Source: Candidatus Zixiibacteriota bacterium
Lineage (GTDB): Bacteria; RBG-13-66-14; B26-G2; WVWN01
NCBI GenBank assembly: GCA_030613505.1
Contig: JAUWLW010000014.1
Location: forward strand, 1-60,043
Direction: 5' to 3'
DNA length: 60,043 nucleotides
The translations under genes and the position numbers were made by a program. Below, piece by piece: positions 1 to 60,043 of the stretch; position 1 is the first letter of the stretch; each line of letters opens with the position of its first letter. The notes beneath the pieces are model-generated. The model was given only the letters and a program-made list of their open reading frames with translations. It ran no database searches and was not told where the DNA came from.

Positions 1-160
1 CTTTTTACCGGCGCCGGAGTCGGCCTACGCCATCGCGTACGCCATCGACGAGGCGCTGCGCTGCAAGGAGAGCGGCGAGGAGAAGTGCATCGCCGTCAAC
101 GTCTCGGGCCACGGCTTCCTGGACATCCCCGGCTTCGCCGACGTGTTGGAGATTACGTAA
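1..160 (+). CDS. TrpB-like tryptophan synthase beta chain, C-terminal end (partial)
   Basis: Only the last ~52 codons lie in the window; the gene enters from the left and stops with TAA at 158-160. The readable tail begins PAPESAYAIAYAIDEAL and continues through KCIAVNVSGHGFLDIPGF. This matches the C-terminal signature of pyridoxal-phosphate TrpB-type (TrpB2) enzymes, in which an APE(S/T)AHAI helix is followed by a xNLSGHG(L/F)LD strand. The family joins indole and serine to make tryptophan, or salvages indole. An indole enzyme next to an indolepyruvate oxidoreductase operon may be meaningful, but the two are convergent and separated by an inserted segment. The family call is fairly secure; the subtype is inferred from the short tail. 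Confidence 0.7.
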   Translation, partial: FLPAPESAYAIAYAIDEALRCKESGEEKCIAVNVSGHGFLDIPGFADVLEIT

Positions 161-179
161 CCTTTAATATCCGAAAAAG

Positions 180-208
180 AAAGCCGCCTCGCGAGGGGCG
201 GCTTTTTT
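180..208. terminator. Rho-independent terminator after trpB-like gene
   Basis: An AAGCCGCC / GGCGGCTT stem is followed by a run of T. It ends the trpB-like gene on the + strand. The same hairpin recurs at 1516-1543 as part of a larger direct repeat. Confidence 0.8.
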
Positions 209-225
209 ATGGCTATTGGAGCGTA

Positions 226-291
226 TCAGCAGACCAGCGCGCAGAGGGCGAGCGAGTGGAACTTGGCCTCCGCGGCGTCCGAGCGGCTGGG
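226..291 (-). pseudogene. Displaced 3' fragment of phosphate butyryltransferase gene
   Basis: Read on the minus strand, this encodes the last 21 residues of Ptb (starting PSRSDAAEAK and ending LCALVC) plus TGA, identical in peptide sequence to the end of the intact gene at 1561. The two nucleotide differences both exchange TCC and TCG serine codons. The fragment has no start and is separated from the intact gene by the inserted dcd segment. It looks like an original or displaced gene end left behind by an integration event. Confidence 0.88.
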
Positions 292-308
292 TCGAACGTA
301 GATGGGTT

Positions 309-887
309 TTAACGTATAGTTTCTTGGTCTACGTACACGGTCCTAACGGGACCCTTGGGTTCGCGCCCTAATCTTTCGAAAATTAATTGGCAGATTTCAA
401 GGTTTTTCGGTTGGATTTGGAGCGGATAAGTACCGAAATTACACATTTCTAGTATAATACGCCCTGAAAACCCAGCGTGAATAGTAGGGGCTGTTAAATG
501 TACTACTAAACCCAAACGCGCTAAAGTACTACGCCCTTCTACTCGGGCCGCTATCGTCCTAGGTAGTTTTATTTTTTCAAGCGTTTTACCTAAAACGAAT
601 TTATGGGGAGGTAACATGAACGAACCGTCTGACGCCCTCGGTACTGGCTTCGCATATTTTTGTAAATAAGGGTAAATATCTATTTCGCCGGGATCGATCA
701 ATATAGGACGGATTACGCCGTCAGGTTCCTCGCTTTGTAATTGTTCGAAGGTTTTTAGTTCTAAAATTTCATCGCCTAAATGGAGGTCGACGGCCGAAGT
801 TGTGAATTGATCTTCACTAGGCGGTGGGTCGATAACGATTTCTCCATTCCCCAGTGCTTCTTCGATTTCCCCGTCACTTAGTATCAT
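309..887 (-). CDS. dcd: dCTP deaminase
   Basis: This 192-residue protein is of the dCTP deaminase/dUTPase superfamily and converts dCTP to dUTP in the cytosol, feeding dTMP synthesis. The core motif is clear: EGRSTLARLGL (the family's GRSSLARLG, with the catalytic Arg and Ser) is followed by ~25 residues ending in IILEMCN, whose Glu matches the catalytic Glu of E. coli Dcd. Length is normal. The ATG at 887 follows a good Shine-Dalgarno (ggagagaggt). The gene is visibly AT-richer than its surroundings and uses A/T-ending codons. With its small neighbour it sits in a segment bounded by a direct repeat, which suggests recent acquisition. It could be housekeeping or phage-related; dCTP deaminases are also known as nucleotide-depleting defence enzymes. 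Confidence 0.9.
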   Translation of the reverse strand: MILSDGEIEEALGNGEIVIDPPPSEDQFTTSAVDLHLGDEILELKTFEQLQSEEPDGVIRPILIDPGEIDIYPYLQKYAKPVPRASDGSFMLPPHKFVLGKTLEKIKLPRTIAARVEGRSTLARLGLVVHLTAPTIHAGFSGRIILEMCNFGTYPLQIQPKNLEICQLIFERLGREPKGPVRTVYVDQETIR

Positions 888-998
888 TTTACCTCTCTCC
901 TAGAGAAGATTCCGACGCTAATACGAGATAGGGCTTTTCGTATCCTCGTAATCGTACTATATTCACTTCTCACTTATATCGACGGCGTATAAAACCGG

Positions 999-1292
999 TT
1001 AATAGAACAATTCTTTGTTCACCTCAACCCTAGGGCCATTTGTTATGGTAGATTGGGGTAGGTCGAGTATTACCGATTTGTCGTTTTCTTTCACGACCAC
1101 TACCCGAACGCGGCCCGTTACCGCGGAAGCCGCCGAGGGTTCTTCTTCTACCGATACATCGTCTTTATCTACGAACGCTGATACTTTGCGTCCATCCATT
1201 AGCTCTACGTGCACCGCCCTTTCATCTTCGAACATTCCTAGAGACACCTTACATCTTATCGCGGCGACATTCTCATCTTTATTTTCACCCAT
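999..1292 (-). CDS. Hypothetical protein, 97 aa, in dcd insert
   Basis: I do not recognise this family. The product is a small, acidic, soluble protein without membrane segments. It starts MGENKDENVAAIRCKVS and looks like a mostly beta fold: short strands such as RAVHVELMDG, KVSAFVDKDDV and VRVVVVKEND, split by a Glu/Ser/Ala-rich linker. An ATG at 1292 with a strong upstream AGGAGG (minus strand) supports real translation. It lies upstream of dcd, 111 bp away on the same strand, and has the same AT-leaning composition, so the two probably entered together. No catalytic motif is visible and I assign no function. Confidence 0.7.
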   Translation of the reverse strand: MGENKDENVAAIRCKVSLGMFEDERAVHVELMDGRKVSAFVDKDDVSVEEEPSAASAVTGRVRVVVVKENDKSVILDLPQSTITNGPRVEVNKELFY

Positions 1293-1515
1293 GTTAACCC
1301 GCTCCTTCTCCTCCTGTGAATAAACGATTTACCCTTAATATTTGGGCAATCAGTTTGCTGGTTAATATTAACTAGCGTAGTGGGGAAAATCAAGAGTAAT
1401 CGAATACTAAAGAGCGTATTTCGGCGAAAAAGACCTCAGTAGAATAGAAAAGGTCCTTTTAGGGAGTCAGGGTTTAAGTTTAAGGATATTCACTTGGAAA
1501 AACTTATGTTAAGAA

Positions 1516-1543
1516 AAAGCCGCCTCGCGGGGGCGGCTTTTTT
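1516..1543. terminator. Terminator of the buk-iorAB-ptb operon
   Basis: A GC-rich AAGCCGCC / GGCGGCTT hairpin. An A-run on the left reads as T on the minus strand, so it can end the ptb transcript. It is nearly identical to the hairpin at 180-208. Confidence 0.75.
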
Positions 1544-1626
1544 ATGGCTATTGGAGCGTATCAGCAGACCAGCGCGCAGAGGGCGAGGGAGTGGAACTTG
1601 GCCTCCGCGGCGTCGGAGCGGCTGGG
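1516..1626. repeat. Direct repeat copy B (3' end of intact ptb plus terminator)
   Basis: Second copy of the repeat described at 180-291. It contains the end of the intact ptb gene and its terminator. The sequence immediately to its left (1441-1515) is AT-rich and unrelated to what lies left of copy A, so the insert boundary on this side is at about 1516. Confidence 0.93.
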
Positions 1627-2475
1627 GATGAGGACCGGCCTGGCCGTCCCCATCATGGCGTGCGCCAGCCGGTAGTGCGCGAAGTACGTAGTCGCCTTCG
1701 CCAGCAGGTTCCCCGAGATTATTTCCGGGACGACGAGGACGTCGGCCCGGCCCGCCACCTCGGACTCGTAGCCCTTTTTCCGGACCGCCTCCATCGAGAT
1801 GCTCAAGTCGAGGCTCAGCGGCCCCTCCACGACGCAGCCGGTTATCTCGCCCCGCTTGTTCATCTCCGTCAGCGCGACGGCGTCCTCGCTCGGTTGATGG
1901 CCCGCCACCGCCTTCTCGGCCATGGAGAGCAGCGCGACGCGGGGACGCTCGAAGCCCAACGCGTGGTAGAGCACGACGGCGTTCTCGACAATTTGCTTTT
2001 TCTGCTCCAGCGTCGGCGCGATGATGATGCCGCCGTCGGTGATGCACACCAGCCGCGTTCCGACGTCCGGGTCCGGGTACTCGAAGACGAACTCGTCGGA
2101 TATCAACCGGTCGGTGCGCAGGCCGCGCTCGCCGTCGAGTACGGCTTTCATAAACGTCGCCGTGTCCACCTTGCCCTTGAGCGCGGTATGGGCCCGGCCC
2201 TCGCGTACGAGCTCGACCGCTTTGGCCGCGGCTTCCTCCTCGCCCTCTGCGGCGACGACCTCGGCCTTGGCGAGCGGCTTCGGCATCGCGGCCAGCGCCT
2301 TTTCGATGAGGGTCGGCTCGCCCACCAGGATGGAGCGGCCCAGGCCTGTCTCTTCGGCGAAAGCGCACGCCTCAAGCGCCGCCGGGTCGTGGCCCGCGGC
2401 GACGGCGACCGTTATCTCGCCTTTCGCCAGCGCCGCGGCGACGACCTCCTCAAAGGTCATCAGCGGCCGGGACAT
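1561..2475 (-). CDS. ptb: Phosphate butyryltransferase / phosphotransacetylase family
   Basis: The product (304 residues) resembles phosphate acyltransferases of the Ptb branch, which swap CoA for phosphate on butyryl-, branched or aryl-acyl-CoA to give an acyl phosphate for a kinase. The N-terminal TFEEVVAAALAKG, the AVAAGHDPAALEA strand-helix and the central KGKVDTATFMKAVL segment are typical of this family, as is the usual length near 300. It is the last gene of a buk-iorA-iorB-ptb run. Its ATG at 2475 lies 16 nt inside iorB and has a Shine-Dalgarno (aaaggag); Met6 overlaps the iorB stop as TGATG and is an alternative start. Its final 111 bp are duplicated at 180-291. Substrate is inferred from context: acyl-CoA from 2-oxo acids made by IorAB. 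Confidence 0.88.
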   Translation of the reverse strand: MSRPLMTFEEVVAAALAKGEITVAVAAGHDPAALEACAFAEETGLGRSILVGEPTLIEKALAAMPKPLAKAEVVAAEGEEEAAAKAVELVREGRAHTALKGKVDTATFMKAVLDGERGLRTDRLISDEFVFEYPDPDVGTRLVCITDGGIIIAPTLEQKKQIVENAVVLYHALGFERPRVALLSMAEKAVAGHQPSEDAVALTEMNKRGEITGCVVEGPLSLDLSISMEAVRKKGYESEVAGRADVLVVPEIISGNLLAKATTYFAHYRLAHAMMGTARPVLIPSRSDAAEAKFHSLALCALVC

Positions 2476-55280: not shown

Positions 55281-55335
55281 GCCTTGACTTATCCCGACAT
55301 ATTGGTATAGAATTGTACGAGAAGGGAGCGATGTC

Positions 55336-57846
55336 ATGAGGAGATTACTATATGCCGCCGTCGCGGGCGTTAGCTTCGCCGCGGCGGCGTACGCGTTGCC
55401 CGGCGACCTTGTCGTCCTCTCCTCGAAAGAGGTGAAGCCCGACGAGGCTGCCGGGTTGTACTATTTGGGGCAGGCGGGGGACGGCTATTTATACAACGGC
55501 TCGAGCGCGGCGGTAGGCCGCGTGGCGCCGTACCGCCTCCTCGACCGCGACGCGCAGCTCAAGGATTACTATGTCGTATGGGCGCCGGAATGGGTCGGCC
55601 TTACGCCAAAGGCGTTCGAACATCTCGGCACGGCGGTCCGCCTTTCGGAATACGAAATCTTGGTAGGCCTCGAGCGGGGCCTGGGCCCGGGTGCTCTCCG
55701 CGCCGTCGAGCATCGTATTGAATTGATCAAGCTCGAGCCCGTCACGCCGGTCGATTGGCGCTACGACGGCGAGGCGCCGCCGAAGAAGGACCCGGTAATA
55801 GAGGGGGCGATAAATGCGATTACGGAAGCGGAGTACGCGGGGTACATAAAGCGACTACAGGATTTTAAGACGCGGTATACGTTTACCGAGGGGTGCGAGG
55901 GTGCGGGAAATTACGTTCGGAATTTCTTTGCCGCCCAGAACCTCGACGCCACGTTATTTCCGTTCCGTTGTGGTTACTTTATGAGCGGTCATTACCCCGC
56001 CGTAGGCGGGAATATATATCTCGAAGAAAGACACTGCATTTTAAGGCGTTCGAAGGATAGCGGCGGCTTCTGGGATAGCGTCTTGCCGGGCGGTAGTAAC
56101 GGCCTGGCCGCCGTTTCGTGGGTGAACGGCCGGACCGGCTTCGTCGCCGGGTACAACAATATACTTTCCAAGACGCGGGACGGCGGCGATACCTGGGAGA
56201 CGGTAGGCATTGGACGGGGTCGTCCCGGATGGCGCTACCAGCCTAGCTCATGCTTTTTCTTGACGGAAGACATCGGCTGGCTAGGGGGCGTCGCGGGTTT
56301 CTCTCACAAAGATTATAAGGGTTTTTTGATTAAGACTACCGACGGCGGCCTAACGTGGTCCGAGCAGCAACTACCCGAGCGTTTCAGGCCGGGAAGCATT
56401 CGCTTCTATGACTCTAAGTTCGGTTGGGCCGCCAACTCCTACACGAACTTTGAACCCACCTTTATTTATACCGACGACGGCGGCTTGACGTGGCGGCCGT
56501 GCACGGACCCGTATACCGGAATGGCCTATGATATCGACTTGGCCGCCGTCGGCGAAAGGGAGGCCTGGGCCGCGGGGCCTATGGGGCGTCTGTTGCATAC
56601 TACCGACGGCCTAAAGTGGACGTACGTTTCCCTCAATGTCTCCGGGTCGTATCGCTACGTTGAGTTCCCCTCACGTAAGTACGGGTACGCCGCCGGCTCC
56701 AAGCTTATCGCCACCAACGACGGCGGCGCGACGTGGCGGGAGATAACGACATCGCCCCAAATGGCTTACGACCTCCTCGCGTTCGCCGATAAAGGCCACG
56801 GCGTCGTCGGCGACGAGGAGGCGGAACACCTGTATCGCACCGACGACGGGTGTAAAACGTTCGTCGATATTTCGGTCGGCGTACAATTGTCGGCTGACAA
56901 CGTTATCGGCGAGCGGCGGGGTAGCGAGGCCCCGGATGAGATAGTAATCATCGGCGGCCACTTCGATTCTTATTCGGACGCGGCGCCGCGCGTGTGCCCC
57001 GGCGCTGAGGATAATGCCTCCGGTACGGCGTGCGCGATGGCCGCGGCGCGCGCTTTTAGGAATATGTCGTTTAAACGGACGGTCCGCTACGTCGCTTTCG
57101 GCGACGAGGAGAACGGCCTCAACGGGAGCCGCGCTTACGCTAATTATTGCGCCGAGAAGGGCGAGAAGATCGTCGCGGTCCTCAACGCGGATATGGTGTG
57201 CTACGACGAGGAGGGCGGCGCGCGCGACGATTACGCGGTCGATTACGAGCAGTATGAGTGGTTGTTTAATTACCTTAAAGCCACCGGCGCCTTGTACGGG
57301 AATAATCTGATTTACGAAGGAGGAAGCTGTGGTAGCGACCAGTGGGCGTTTTGGGATGTCGGCTACGCGGCGCTGGGCGTCACCGAGGGCGGGGTCGGCG
57401 AGGGGGGCTTTATTAATTACCCGTGGTACCACACTACCGAGGACACCCTCGACAAGCTCCACCCGGCCCTCGGCGTCCGCTTCGTCCGGGACTATGCGGC
57501 GACACTCGCCCACCTCGCGGGCGTGGGCGACTACTGCTTCGAGCCGGAGCCGCCCGGGTACGCTACGATTCCCTTCGCCCGGCCCTTCGCCGTCTACCCT
57601 AACCCGTCTTGCTACGCTACGTCCGCCGGCGGCGTGAACTTCGTCGGCGTAAAGTCGCCCGCTACTGTAGAGATATACGACCTCGCCGGCCGGCGCGTGG
57701 CGCGGGAGGTTGTGGCCGCGGGCCGCGACGAGTGCGTGTGGCGGCCGGCGACGCCGGAAGGTGAAACGCTGGCCCCCGGCGTATACTTATACCGTGTCGA
57801 CGGGCAAGAGCAGAAGAAGGCCGGTAAAATCGTCGTCGCGAGATAG
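55336..57846 (+). CDS. Exported M28 peptidase with nested beta-propeller and T9SS-like sorting domain
   Basis: An 836-residue secreted peptidase. Signal peptide ~1-20; an N-terminal unit (~21-150, LPGDLVVLSSKEV ...) may be a propeptide. The M28 fold starts at ~170 (YIKRLQDFKTRYTF), is interrupted by a YCF48-type propeller (~235-520, repeats such as DGGDTWE and DGGLTWS), then resumes with the zinc residues: GGHFDS (~H542), GAEDNASG (~D559), DEENGL (~E589), NADMV (~D617), WYHTTED (~H697). The last ~75 residues (FAVYPNPS ... VEIYDLAGRRV ... LAPGVYLYRVDG) form a type IX-like C-terminal sorting domain. A tandem paralogue follows. Confidence 0.88.
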   Translation: MRRLLYAAVAGVSFAAAAYALPGDLVVLSSKEVKPDEAAGLYYLGQAGDGYLYNGSSAAVGRVAPYRLLDRDAQLKDYYVVWAPEWVGLTPKAFEHLGTAVRLSEYEILVGLERGLGPGALRAVEHRIELIKLEPVTPVDWRYDGEAPPKKDPVIEGAINAITEAEYAGYIKRLQDFKTRYTFTEGCEGAGNYVRNFFAAQNLDATLFPFRCGYFMSGHYPAVGGNIYLEERHCILRRSKDSGGFWDSVLPGGSNGLAAVSWVNGRTGFVAGYNNILSKTRDGGDTWETVGIGRGRPGWRYQPSSCFFLTEDIGWLGGVAGFSHKDYKGFLIKTTDGGLTWSEQQLPERFRPGSIRFYDSKFGWAANSYTNFEPTFIYTDDGGLTWRPCTDPYTGMAYDIDLAAVGEREAWAAGPMGRLLHTTDGLKWTYVSLNVSGSYRYVEFPSRKYGYAAGSKLIATNDGGATWREITTSPQMAYDLLAFADKGHGVVGDEEAEHLYRTDDGCKTFVDISVGVQLSADNVIGERRGSEAPDEIVIIGGHFDSYSDAAPRVCPGAEDNASGTACAMAAARAFRNMSFKRTVRYVAFGDEENGLNGSRAYANYCAEKGEKIVAVLNADMVCYDEEGGARDDYAVDYEQYEWLFNYLKATGALYGNNLIYEGGSCGSDQWAFWDVGYAALGVTEGGVGEGGFINYPWYHTTEDTLDKLHPALGVRFVRDYAATLAHLAGVGDYCFEPEPPGYATIPFARPFAVYPNPSCYATSAGGVNFVGVKSPATVEIYDLAGRRVAREVVAAGRDECVWRPATPEGETLAPGVYLYRVDGQEQKKAGKIVVAR

Positions 57847-57872
57847 GAAGGACGATATAAATTTTGAAACGG

Positions 57873-57904
57873 CCGGGCCTGCGGCGAGCGGACCCGGTTT
57901 TGTA
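57873..57904 (+). terminator. Weak terminator between the two M28 peptidase genes
   Basis: CCGGG / CCCGG stem with a large GC-rich loop followed by TTTT-GT. The stem is short and the T-run modest. Confidence 0.5.
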
Positions 57905-57959
57905 CTCTTGACCGCCGCCGTAGAGTATCGTTTAATATTGGTAGAAAGCAGGGATGTAC

Positions 57960-60043
57960 ATGAACAGGATGATTATGGCAGCTGTCGCGGCCGCGATATA
58001 CGGCGCGGCGGCCTTGGCTCTGCCGGGCGACGTCGTCGTGGTTTCGGCGAAGGACGTTGGGGCGGACGAAGACGCGGGGTTTTATTATTTGGGCTCGTGC
58101 TCCGCGGGATTTTTGTATAACGGCTCGAGCGCGGCGGTAGGCCGCGCGGCGCCGTTCCGCGTTCTCGACCGGGGCGCCCGGCGTAAGGATTATTATGTCG
58201 TGTGGCTGCCGGAGGGCGCCGCGGTTACGGCCGCGTCGTTCGGTCACGTCGGCGACGCCGTACGCCTATCGACATATGAAATTCTGGTCGGTTTGGCCGA
58301 CGGGGTAGGTACCGGGGCGCTTCGGGCCGCGGCCCCGGGCGTGGAGCTCGCCAAACTCGAGGCCGTCACGCCGGCGGATTGGCGCTACGACGGCGAGCCG
58401 CCGCCGGCCAAGAAAGGCCGCCGCGTCGCCGCGGCCGTCGCGACGATCACGCCGCGGAGCTACGCCGGCCACATAAAAACGCTGCAGGATTTCAAGAGCC
58501 GCTTCACGGACTCGTTCGGCTACGACGGCGCGCGGATATACGTCTTCAATTTACTCGGCATGCAAAACCTCGAAGCGTCGTACTTCCCGTTCAAGTTCGG
58601 CAATTTCGCGCGCGTCTATTATCCGGACGCGGGCGGCGCCATGTACGTCGATACGACGTACCAAATCATCAAGAAGAGCGCCGACCACGGCGCGACGTGG
58701 AGGACCATCGCCGCGGCGGGAATTGACGACGTCGCCGGCGCGTTCTGGCTCGACGGCCTGACGGGTTTCGTCGCCGGCTACAACGGCATATTGTCGCGAA
58801 CGACGGACGGCGGCCATACGTGGTCGACGGGCCGCATCGGCTCGGCGCCGTCGCTTACGTACAAGGCCACCGCGGTGGGTTTCGCGACCGCCGACGTGGG
58901 GTGGGTCGGCGGCACGTCGTATAAAGAGGGCGTGCCGTACGGCGAGTTCTTCGTCAAGACGGTCGACGGCGGCCGCACGTGGTCGAACCAAAAGGTCCCG
59001 GCGGATTTCCGGGTGCGGCGGCTGGCGCTGGCCGACGCGCGGCACGGTTGGGCCGGGGGCCCGAACGGCATCGTCTATACGGCCGACGGCGGCTCGAGCT
59101 GGCGGAAATGCGACGCGCCGTCGTCTTTGGGAGATTTCGTGGCCGCGGCGCCGCGCACGGCGTGGGGGACGGACGACTACGGCCGCGTGTACAAGACGAC
59201 GGACGGCGTCAATTGGCGGCGCGTCGACGTGGGCGTGGCCGGCGCCTTTTTGCGCATAGCCTTCGCGGACGCGGCCCACGGCTTCGCGATCGGCGATAAG
59301 TTTGTCCGCACCTTGGACGGTGGCTCGAGCTGGCAGGAGCTGGCCAAGCCCCCCATCGCCGGCTGCAACGTCTTCTCGTTCGCCGACGAAAGGCGCGGCG
59401 TCGTGGGATATTCTTACGGCCAGCAACTCTACCGGACCGACGACGGCGGCAAGAGCTTCGCGGATATCTCCGCCAATATCGATTTGTACGCCGAGAACGT
59501 AATCGGCGAGCGCCGGGGCTGCGAGGAGCCGGACGAAATAGTTATCATCGGCGGCCATTTGGATTCCATATCCGAATGCCCTCTAACTGACGCTCCGGGC
59601 GCCGAGGATAACGCCTCCGGCGTCGCAACCGCGTTGGCGGCCGCCGCGGCGTTCCGGAACCTTTCGTTCAAGCGTACGGTCCGGTACGTCGCTTTCGGCG
59701 GCGAGGAGAGCGGCCTCTTCGGCAGCCGGGCGTACGCCGAGTACTGCGCCCGGAGGGGCGAGAAGATAATCGCCTTCCTCAACGCCGACATGGTGAGCTA
59801 CGACGAGGAGTACGGCGCCCGCGACGATTACGGCGTGGCGTACGGCGAGTATAAATGGCTCTTCGACTACATCAAACGCGTGAACTCGTTGTACGACGCC
59901 GGCATGATATGCGAGCGCTTCGAGTTCAAATCGAGCGACCACGGCCCGTTCTGGGACCGCGGCTACGCGGCGCTGGGGGCGATTCACGGCCGCGCCACCA
60001 CCGCCGGCGGCCAAGGGTATATCTGGTACCACAGCACCGAGGA
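57960..60043 (+). CDS. Second exported M28 peptidase with nested propeller (partial)
   Basis: A paralogue of the preceding gene, open to the right edge without a stop (694 codons visible). The same plan is read: signal peptide, LPGDVVVVSAKDV unit, M28 start (HIKTLQDFKSRFTD), propeller repeats (DGGHTWS, DGGRTWS, DGGSSWR, DGVNWR, DGGSSWQ), then the zinc motifs GGHLDS, GAEDNASG, GEESGL, NADMVSYD and the last visible WYHSTE. A start at ATG 57960 is favoured; an in-frame ATG lies 6 nt upstream. The missing end presumably holds a sorting domain like that of its partner. Confidence 0.87.
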   Translation, partial: MNRMIMAAVAAAIYGAAALALPGDVVVVSAKDVGADEDAGFYYLGSCSAGFLYNGSSAAVGRAAPFRVLDRGARRKDYYVVWLPEGAAVTAASFGHVGDAVRLSTYEILVGLADGVGTGALRAAAPGVELAKLEAVTPADWRYDGEPPPAKKGRRVAAAVATITPRSYAGHIKTLQDFKSRFTDSFGYDGARIYVFNLLGMQNLEASYFPFKFGNFARVYYPDAGGAMYVDTTYQIIKKSADHGATWRTIAAAGIDDVAGAFWLDGLTGFVAGYNGILSRTTDGGHTWSTGRIGSAPSLTYKATAVGFATADVGWVGGTSYKEGVPYGEFFVKTVDGGRTWSNQKVPADFRVRRLALADARHGWAGGPNGIVYTADGGSSWRKCDAPSSLGDFVAAAPRTAWGTDDYGRVYKTTDGVNWRRVDVGVAGAFLRIAFADAAHGFAIGDKFVRTLDGGSSWQELAKPPIAGCNVFSFADERRGVVGYSYGQQLYRTDDGGKSFADISANIDLYAENVIGERRGCEEPDEIVIIGGHLDSISECPLTDAPGAEDNASGVATALAAAAAFRNLSFKRTVRYVAFGGEESGLFGSRAYAEYCARRGEKIIAFLNADMVSYDEEYGARDDYGVAYGEYKWLFDYIKRVNSLYDAGMICERFEFKSSDHGPFWDRGYAALGAIHGRATTAGGQGYIWYHSTE

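Follow-up and report, generated by a model that had tools for sequence, protein, structure and literature searches.

Results

An AT-rich dcd insert lies between two copies of the ptb gene end

The window, which here means the whole analysed stretch of 60,043 nucleotides, is the complete contig C60 of the MAG; it starts inside a trpB-like gene, and trpB is therefore cut. Next to this gene end lie an AT-rich segment and the intact gene ptb, which belongs to a same-strand group with iorB, iorA and a butyrate kinase gene. The features are as follows:

2..160, plus strand: trpB-like 3' end, last 52 codons (NCBIfam TrpB-like, 5e-15)
180..291, unstranded: repeat copy 1 (112 bp), outer and displaced, 97% identical to 1516-1626
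180..205, unstranded: bidirectional terminator, a 26-nt hairpin separating trpB from the displaced ptb tail
226..291, minus strand: displaced ptb tail, last 21 codons and stop, with the same peptide as intact ptb (alignment)
292..1515, unstranded: inserted AT-rich segment of 1,224 bp, with 43% GC compared with 66% in the flanks
309..887, minus strand: dcd, dCTP deaminase family, 192 aa (Pfam PF22769, DCD, 5e-34; NCBIfam TIGR02274)
999..1292, minus strand: ORF of 97 aa without a known family, 39% identical to a 91-aa ORF of another genome of the phylum (G007)
1516..1626, unstranded: repeat copy 2 (111 bp), intact ptb tail and terminator (alignment)
1561..2475, minus strand: ptb, phosphate butyryltransferase-like, 304 aa, intact (Pfam PTA_PTB, 5e-40)

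The two direct repeat copies, aligned over 112 columns, differ by two substitutions and one 1-bp gap, the latter located in the terminator loop; the pair was matched by BLASTN within the window at E = 6e-47, which rules out a chance repeat. Both copies comprise the terminator and the last 21 codons and stop of ptb, and both substitutions exchange TCC and TCG serine codons, leaving the encoded peptide unchanged. Copy 2 is the natural end of ptb with its own terminator, and copy 1 includes no ptb sequence beyond the terminator, these 21 codons and the stop. Apart from the terminator hairpin, the two ends show no inverted match. The original prediction was borne out for the repeated ptb end, the synonymous serine codon exchanges, the AT-rich insert of approximately 1.2 kb and its lack of a visible integrase. 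The dcd insert with two ptb tails is real, and the arrangement is almost certainly a derived state. The hairpin itself, GCCGCCTCGCGAGGGGCGGC (window 180-205), was found in near-identical sequence on many contigs and is apparently a terminator.

The cargo resembles a conserved gene pair

The insert encodes dcd and one further ORF, both on the ptb strand. The Glu in the dcd motif IILEMCN aligned, by sequence comparison, with the LE Glu of known Dcd proteins, and we take it to be the catalytic deaminase residue. Against TIGR02274, the protein scored 128.5 bits, above the curated cut-off of 92.8. Like its relatives in the PDB (4xjc and 1xs1, Dcd/Dut family), it keeps the whole dCTP deaminase domain, the deaminase Glu and the Arg/Ser motif; unlike an ordinary dCTP deaminase, it has TAPTIHAGF at the position of the customary TAHRIDPGW, an Asp-containing motif, and is paired with the 97-aa ORF. 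This ORF, absent from the original prediction, had no family match in Pfam, NCBIfam or PADLOC and no significant PHROG family. G007 carries its related ORF (the 91-aa ORF, L073:2042-2317, minus strand) immediately upstream of a dcd gene, which suggests that the two genes form a conserved pair. In G007, the pair sits among unrelated genes, away from ptb and without repeats of the ptb-site kind. A close dcd was present only in G007 among 14 genomes of the phylum, and none of these 14 was seen to be a donor with the dcd pair beside ptb; dcd was absent from all three sister genomes of the same genus (G001, G002 and G003).

ORF and family searches of positions 292-1515 detected no transposase, integrase or terminal inverted repeats, and an IS or transposon origin was rejected, since the insert has neither a transposase nor end repeats. 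A phage origin was also rejected: single-protein scans of viral contigs gave no relative of dcd or of the 97-aa ORF. With an alignment as query, viral contigs yielded distant relatives of dcd only and none of the 97-aa ORF, and the dcd relatives in phages were below 60% identity. The insert DNA had no plasmid match, which speaks against a plasmid origin, and neither protein matched a known defence system in PADLOC. The ptb-site cargo thus consists of dcd and the 97-aa ORF and includes no restriction-modification (R-M) system. As reported for avcID (PMC10511110), nucleotide-pool deaminases can act against phages; our guess is that the cargo might supply a nucleotide-pool enzyme, possibly with an anti-phage role.

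The trpB-ptb site in relatives

The position of the locus raises the question of an assembly chimera of strain variants at the contig end: the contig starts 180 bp before the repeat, and of trpB no more than the last 52 codons was found anywhere in the assembly. However, the copies differ at three places along one continuous path, and equal structures occur mid-contig on large contigs, with empty sites in relatives, as described below; we regard a chimera as highly improbable.

The original prediction had looked to relatives for an empty trpB-ptb site; none was found in the sister genomes G002 and G003. Downstream of trpB, G003 has the same terminator stem and next to it trpS, and the contig carrying ptb ends inside ptb; in G002, ptb runs into an N gap. 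Since the terminator form of copy 1, GCGAGG, is the form that follows trpB in G003, the outer repeat copy probably keeps the native trpB side.

Insertions with the same anatomy recur across the genome

We searched each contig against itself, covering 2.27 of the 2.86 Mb of the MAG, for repeats of 40-400 bp with at least 80% identity located 0.3-6 kb apart. The 2.27 Mb contained 100 direct pairs and 1 inverted pair; many of the direct pairs are tandem paralogs. AT-rich inserts, at least 8 GC points below their flanks, were enclosed by 24 direct and 0 inverted pairs. A control set of 369 kb from other bacteria gave 2 direct pairs, none with an AT-rich insert. Approximately a dozen of the 24, together with a few outside this filter, share the anatomy of the ptb locus, in which an intact gene is followed by cargo and then by a displaced gene end. 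They include the following loci, for which the names maf, lysS, clpC, polA, comEC and glycosyltransferase were read from translated sequence and are not family matches:

C7:33225/35013: rtcB 5' end; cargo a BglII-type nuclease and a DNA methylase
C7:252/1350: yebC-comEC junction; the repeat spans parts of both genes, both of which are intact
C30: maf 5' end, repeat-flanked insert
C9: glycosyltransferase 5' end, repeat-flanked insert
C33: 3' end of a type IIG R-M gene, repeat-flanked insert
C63: lysS 3' end, repeat-flanked insert
C78: clpC 5' end; the displaced copy has a stop codon and gaps
C23: polA 3' end; cargo a 915-aa methylase-like protein, type IIG-like
C91: a gene of this contig; cargo an Eco57I-type methylase of 1,086 aa, type IIG-like, and a nucleotidyltransferase
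C97:344-385/2339-2380 (L179): 3' half of a tRNA-Val gene from the anticodon on, 42 bp, 100% identical; AT-rich insert of 1,953 bp without an integrase
C18:12436-12552/13818-13934 (L099): upstream region and 5' half of a tRNA-Leu gene, ending in the anticodon loop; insert of 1,265 bp

Across the loci, the cargo ranges from BglII-type R-M genes and type IIG methylases to proteins without a known family. Some further features of these genomes were observed along the way. On C63 (58926-61280, L195-L196), lysS lacks its last codons at the repeat and continues in frame into the AT-rich insert, giving a 784-aa frame and possibly a fusion protein. In G001, several partial tail copies of a type IIG R-M gene lie in a row (C88:13553-15382 and C64:2692-4249), an arrangement suggestive of serial insertion at a single site, judging from match positions. 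The window contains gene-length tandem repeats of 70-81% DNA identity at 43801-45013/44997-46266 and at 55320-59876, which are probably tandem paralogs. Many secreted-looking proteins, as at C30:3358-3987, C30:11938-12747, C10:55-3298, C44:8211-8852 and L070:2529-3383, end in an APxSLGRVKALFR-like motif, a candidate C-terminal sorting signal of the lineage.

The original prediction had likened the ptb locus to integrative elements that enter gene ends. In the usual sense of the term this found no support across the genome: the targets and repeat lengths (40-240 bp) differ at every locus, 5' and 3' gene ends are both used, inspection of 16 inserts by eye revealed no common core or end sequence, and the six tyrosine integrases of the genome all lie either on other contigs or far from the clear cases. 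These same findings, together with the lack of an integrase in the ptb insert, weigh against a related reading in which the locus is the remnant of a site-specific integrative element like e14 in icd, with attL/attR at the ptb 3' end and its integrase lost or acting in trans. The presence of six integrases in the genome, the tRNA-Val 3' half flanking another integrase-less insert, and a topology and kind of differences identical to those of e14, icd and icdC are in its favor; on balance, we consider such a remnant improbable at ptb. The two tRNA-gene cases do look like integrase remnants, as cuts in tRNA genes at the anticodon loop are typical of integrases. The duplication of the 5' half of a tRNA gene, observed for tRNA-Leu on C18, is unusual.

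Six of the loci are empty in sister genomes

Empty sites were sought by aligning a fused query of the flanking proteins with G001, G002 and G003 and reading the spacing from the match positions. Six loci proved to be empty in one to three of these sister genomes, and the inserts at those six loci are gains for this reason. At the rtcB locus, the three sisters show spacings of 13, 14 and 22 bp between the neighbours, compared with 1.8 kb here; G001 and G003 have yebC next to comEC; all three sisters have lysS close to its neighbour; between polA and its neighbour there are 20 bp in G003 and 285 bp in G001, compared with 3.1 kb here; the flanks of the tRNA-Val locus on C97 are 173 and 204 bp apart in sisters, compared with 2.2 kb here; and the flanks of the C91 locus are 373 bp apart in G003, compared with 4.3 kb here. 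G001 also has the clpC cargo, at 87% identity and immediately upstream of clpC; this gain is thus older or shared, in agreement with its diverged repeats. The claim that foreign DNA had been inserted at a gene end, leaving the gene intact and the old end displaced, is supported, and strongly so at the level of the class, by approximately a dozen more loci of the genome, six of them empty in sisters.

Displaced tails and the codon positions of their differences

If a functional gene end is carried in with the cargo, the differences between the copies should resemble those between orthologs and be concentrated at third codon positions. A true target duplication, as has been proposed for R-M genes in Helicobacter, predicts otherwise: the insertion process would make a long staggered gap in the target, which is copied on both sides, so that the copies are identical at first and the displaced one then drifts. 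Under such drift, 40-45% of differences would fall at third positions, according to simulation. As a positive control, icd and icdC at e14 differ at codon positions 1/0/11, that is, at third positions in 11 of 12 cases.

In the pooled 3'-end cases, 38 of 58 differences (66%) fall at third positions, which rejects drift (p = 0.0008), and the polA copies alone contribute 14 of 17. This result gives moderate support to the view that the 3'-end class received its tails from another strain; the support is only moderate because polA weighs heavily in it and the division into 3' and 5' cases was made after the data had been seen. In the 5'-end cases, 28 of 57 differences (49%) fall at third positions, matching the drift expectation and thus favoring target duplication. 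The ptb copies have only two differences, both synonymous, a number too small to decide for or against a tail swap at ptb itself. Of the claim that the displaced ptb tail marks a swap with a tail from another strain, what stands is its counterpart in the pooled 3' class, and it extends neither to the 5' cases nor, with two differences, to a verdict at ptb.

We also considered the direction of the differences between A/T and G/C, which was mixed across loci (46:62, p = 0.15) and was dropped as a general test. At polA and lysS, which were picked post hoc, the intact copy is AT-richer (7:2 and 6:2), contrary to the usual direction of drift and hence to target duplication. The latter reading has further points on its side: the pattern it explains has been named in the literature (PMC1643837 and PMC3031569), the repeat at yebC-comEC crosses the boundary between two genes, both still intact, and the displaced clpC copy carries a stop codon and gaps, as noted above. 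For the ptb locus, we regard target duplication as a possible explanation, albeit an unlikely one.

Discussion

The dcd/ptb locus belongs to a genome-wide pattern of a known but mechanistically unsettled kind, and this lineage seems to have acquired small accessory genes again and again without a visible integrase. For the ptb locus, we prefer over an integrase-borne element, with a probability of roughly 60%, a route in which a circularised donor fragment carrying a ptb tail and the cargo was integrated by a single homologous crossover. In this scheme, a fragment from a related genome, with accessory genes beside ptb, would enter the cell and close into a small circle, which would then integrate through one homologous crossover within a short stretch of ptb. 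The product would be intact ptb followed by the cargo and the displaced ptb tail, and no integrase would be needed. The outer limit of the repeat would mark the point at which the donor and recipient neighbourhoods diverge, namely the terminator end at ptb, the start codon at rtcB and the stop codon at polA, and the inner limit would be an arbitrary break within the gene. A precedent exists in E. coli: a partial duplication of the homologous gene end was carried by 56 of 60 recombinants, with lengths of 109-950 bp among those sequenced, and was attributed to the recircularisation of linear DNA and a single crossover (PMC3240628). Several observations speak against the circle route at ptb: no empty trpB-ptb site was found, the neighbour of trpB in G003 is trpS, the nearby contig start leaves some chance of a local misassembly, no donor with dcd beside ptb is known, and the three sister genomes lack dcd.

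One mechanism may not cover all loci, because the 5'-end cases fit the drift of a simple duplicate. The insertion class may be mixed in mechanism: target duplication is the better fit for the yebC-comEC locus and for the 5' cases with drift, and the two tRNA loci resemble integrase remnants. A broader proposal, that the lineage repeatedly gains small accessory cassettes (R-M, dcd and others) through a dedicated or unusually active gene-end-homology route that swaps the target tail each time, appears doubtful to us; if it were true, ordinary housekeeping gene ends would be general docking sites.

For the question of how small gene clusters that lack an integrase or transposase are transferred among bacteria, a dozen or more insertions of varied ages in one genome, with empty sites in close relatives, constitute a natural series that lets the exchange of a donor tail be told from target duplication. 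The series is also a warning that the ends of housekeeping genes (polA, lysS, clpC and rtcB) can be foreign.

Comparison with known systems

To our knowledge, the insertion of R-M genes with a long target duplication was described more than 20 years ago, and we know of no settled mechanism for it. The term reportedly goes back to Nobusato in 2000, who is said to have coined it for R-M genes of Helicobacter pylori, with a further account by Furuta in 2010. The genome-wide pattern found here matches this published phenomenon of Helicobacter (PMC1643837 and PMC3031569): accessory genes lie between long host repeats of variable length without transposon ends, and R-M genes, a frequent but not obligatory cargo in this class, occur at other loci of the genome (a BglII-type system at rtcB, type IIG-like genes at C91 and polA). 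It differs in that the ptb cargo is dcd with the 97-aa ORF instead of R-M genes, that approximately a dozen loci are involved in one uncultured genome, and that the 3' repeats differ mostly at third positions. The E. coli lacZ system (PMC3240628) likewise places an insert between gene-end duplications without an integrase; that system is a laboratory plasmid assay, whereas the events here are inferred from sequence. Finally, e14 at icd of Escherichia coli is a 15-kb element with an integrase and an excisionase, a repeat of 216 bp and one site, unlike the inserts of this genome, and yet it resembles the ptb locus: at e14, the 3' end of the gene is replaced by a near-synonymous copy and the old end is displaced as icdC, as may have happened at ptb.
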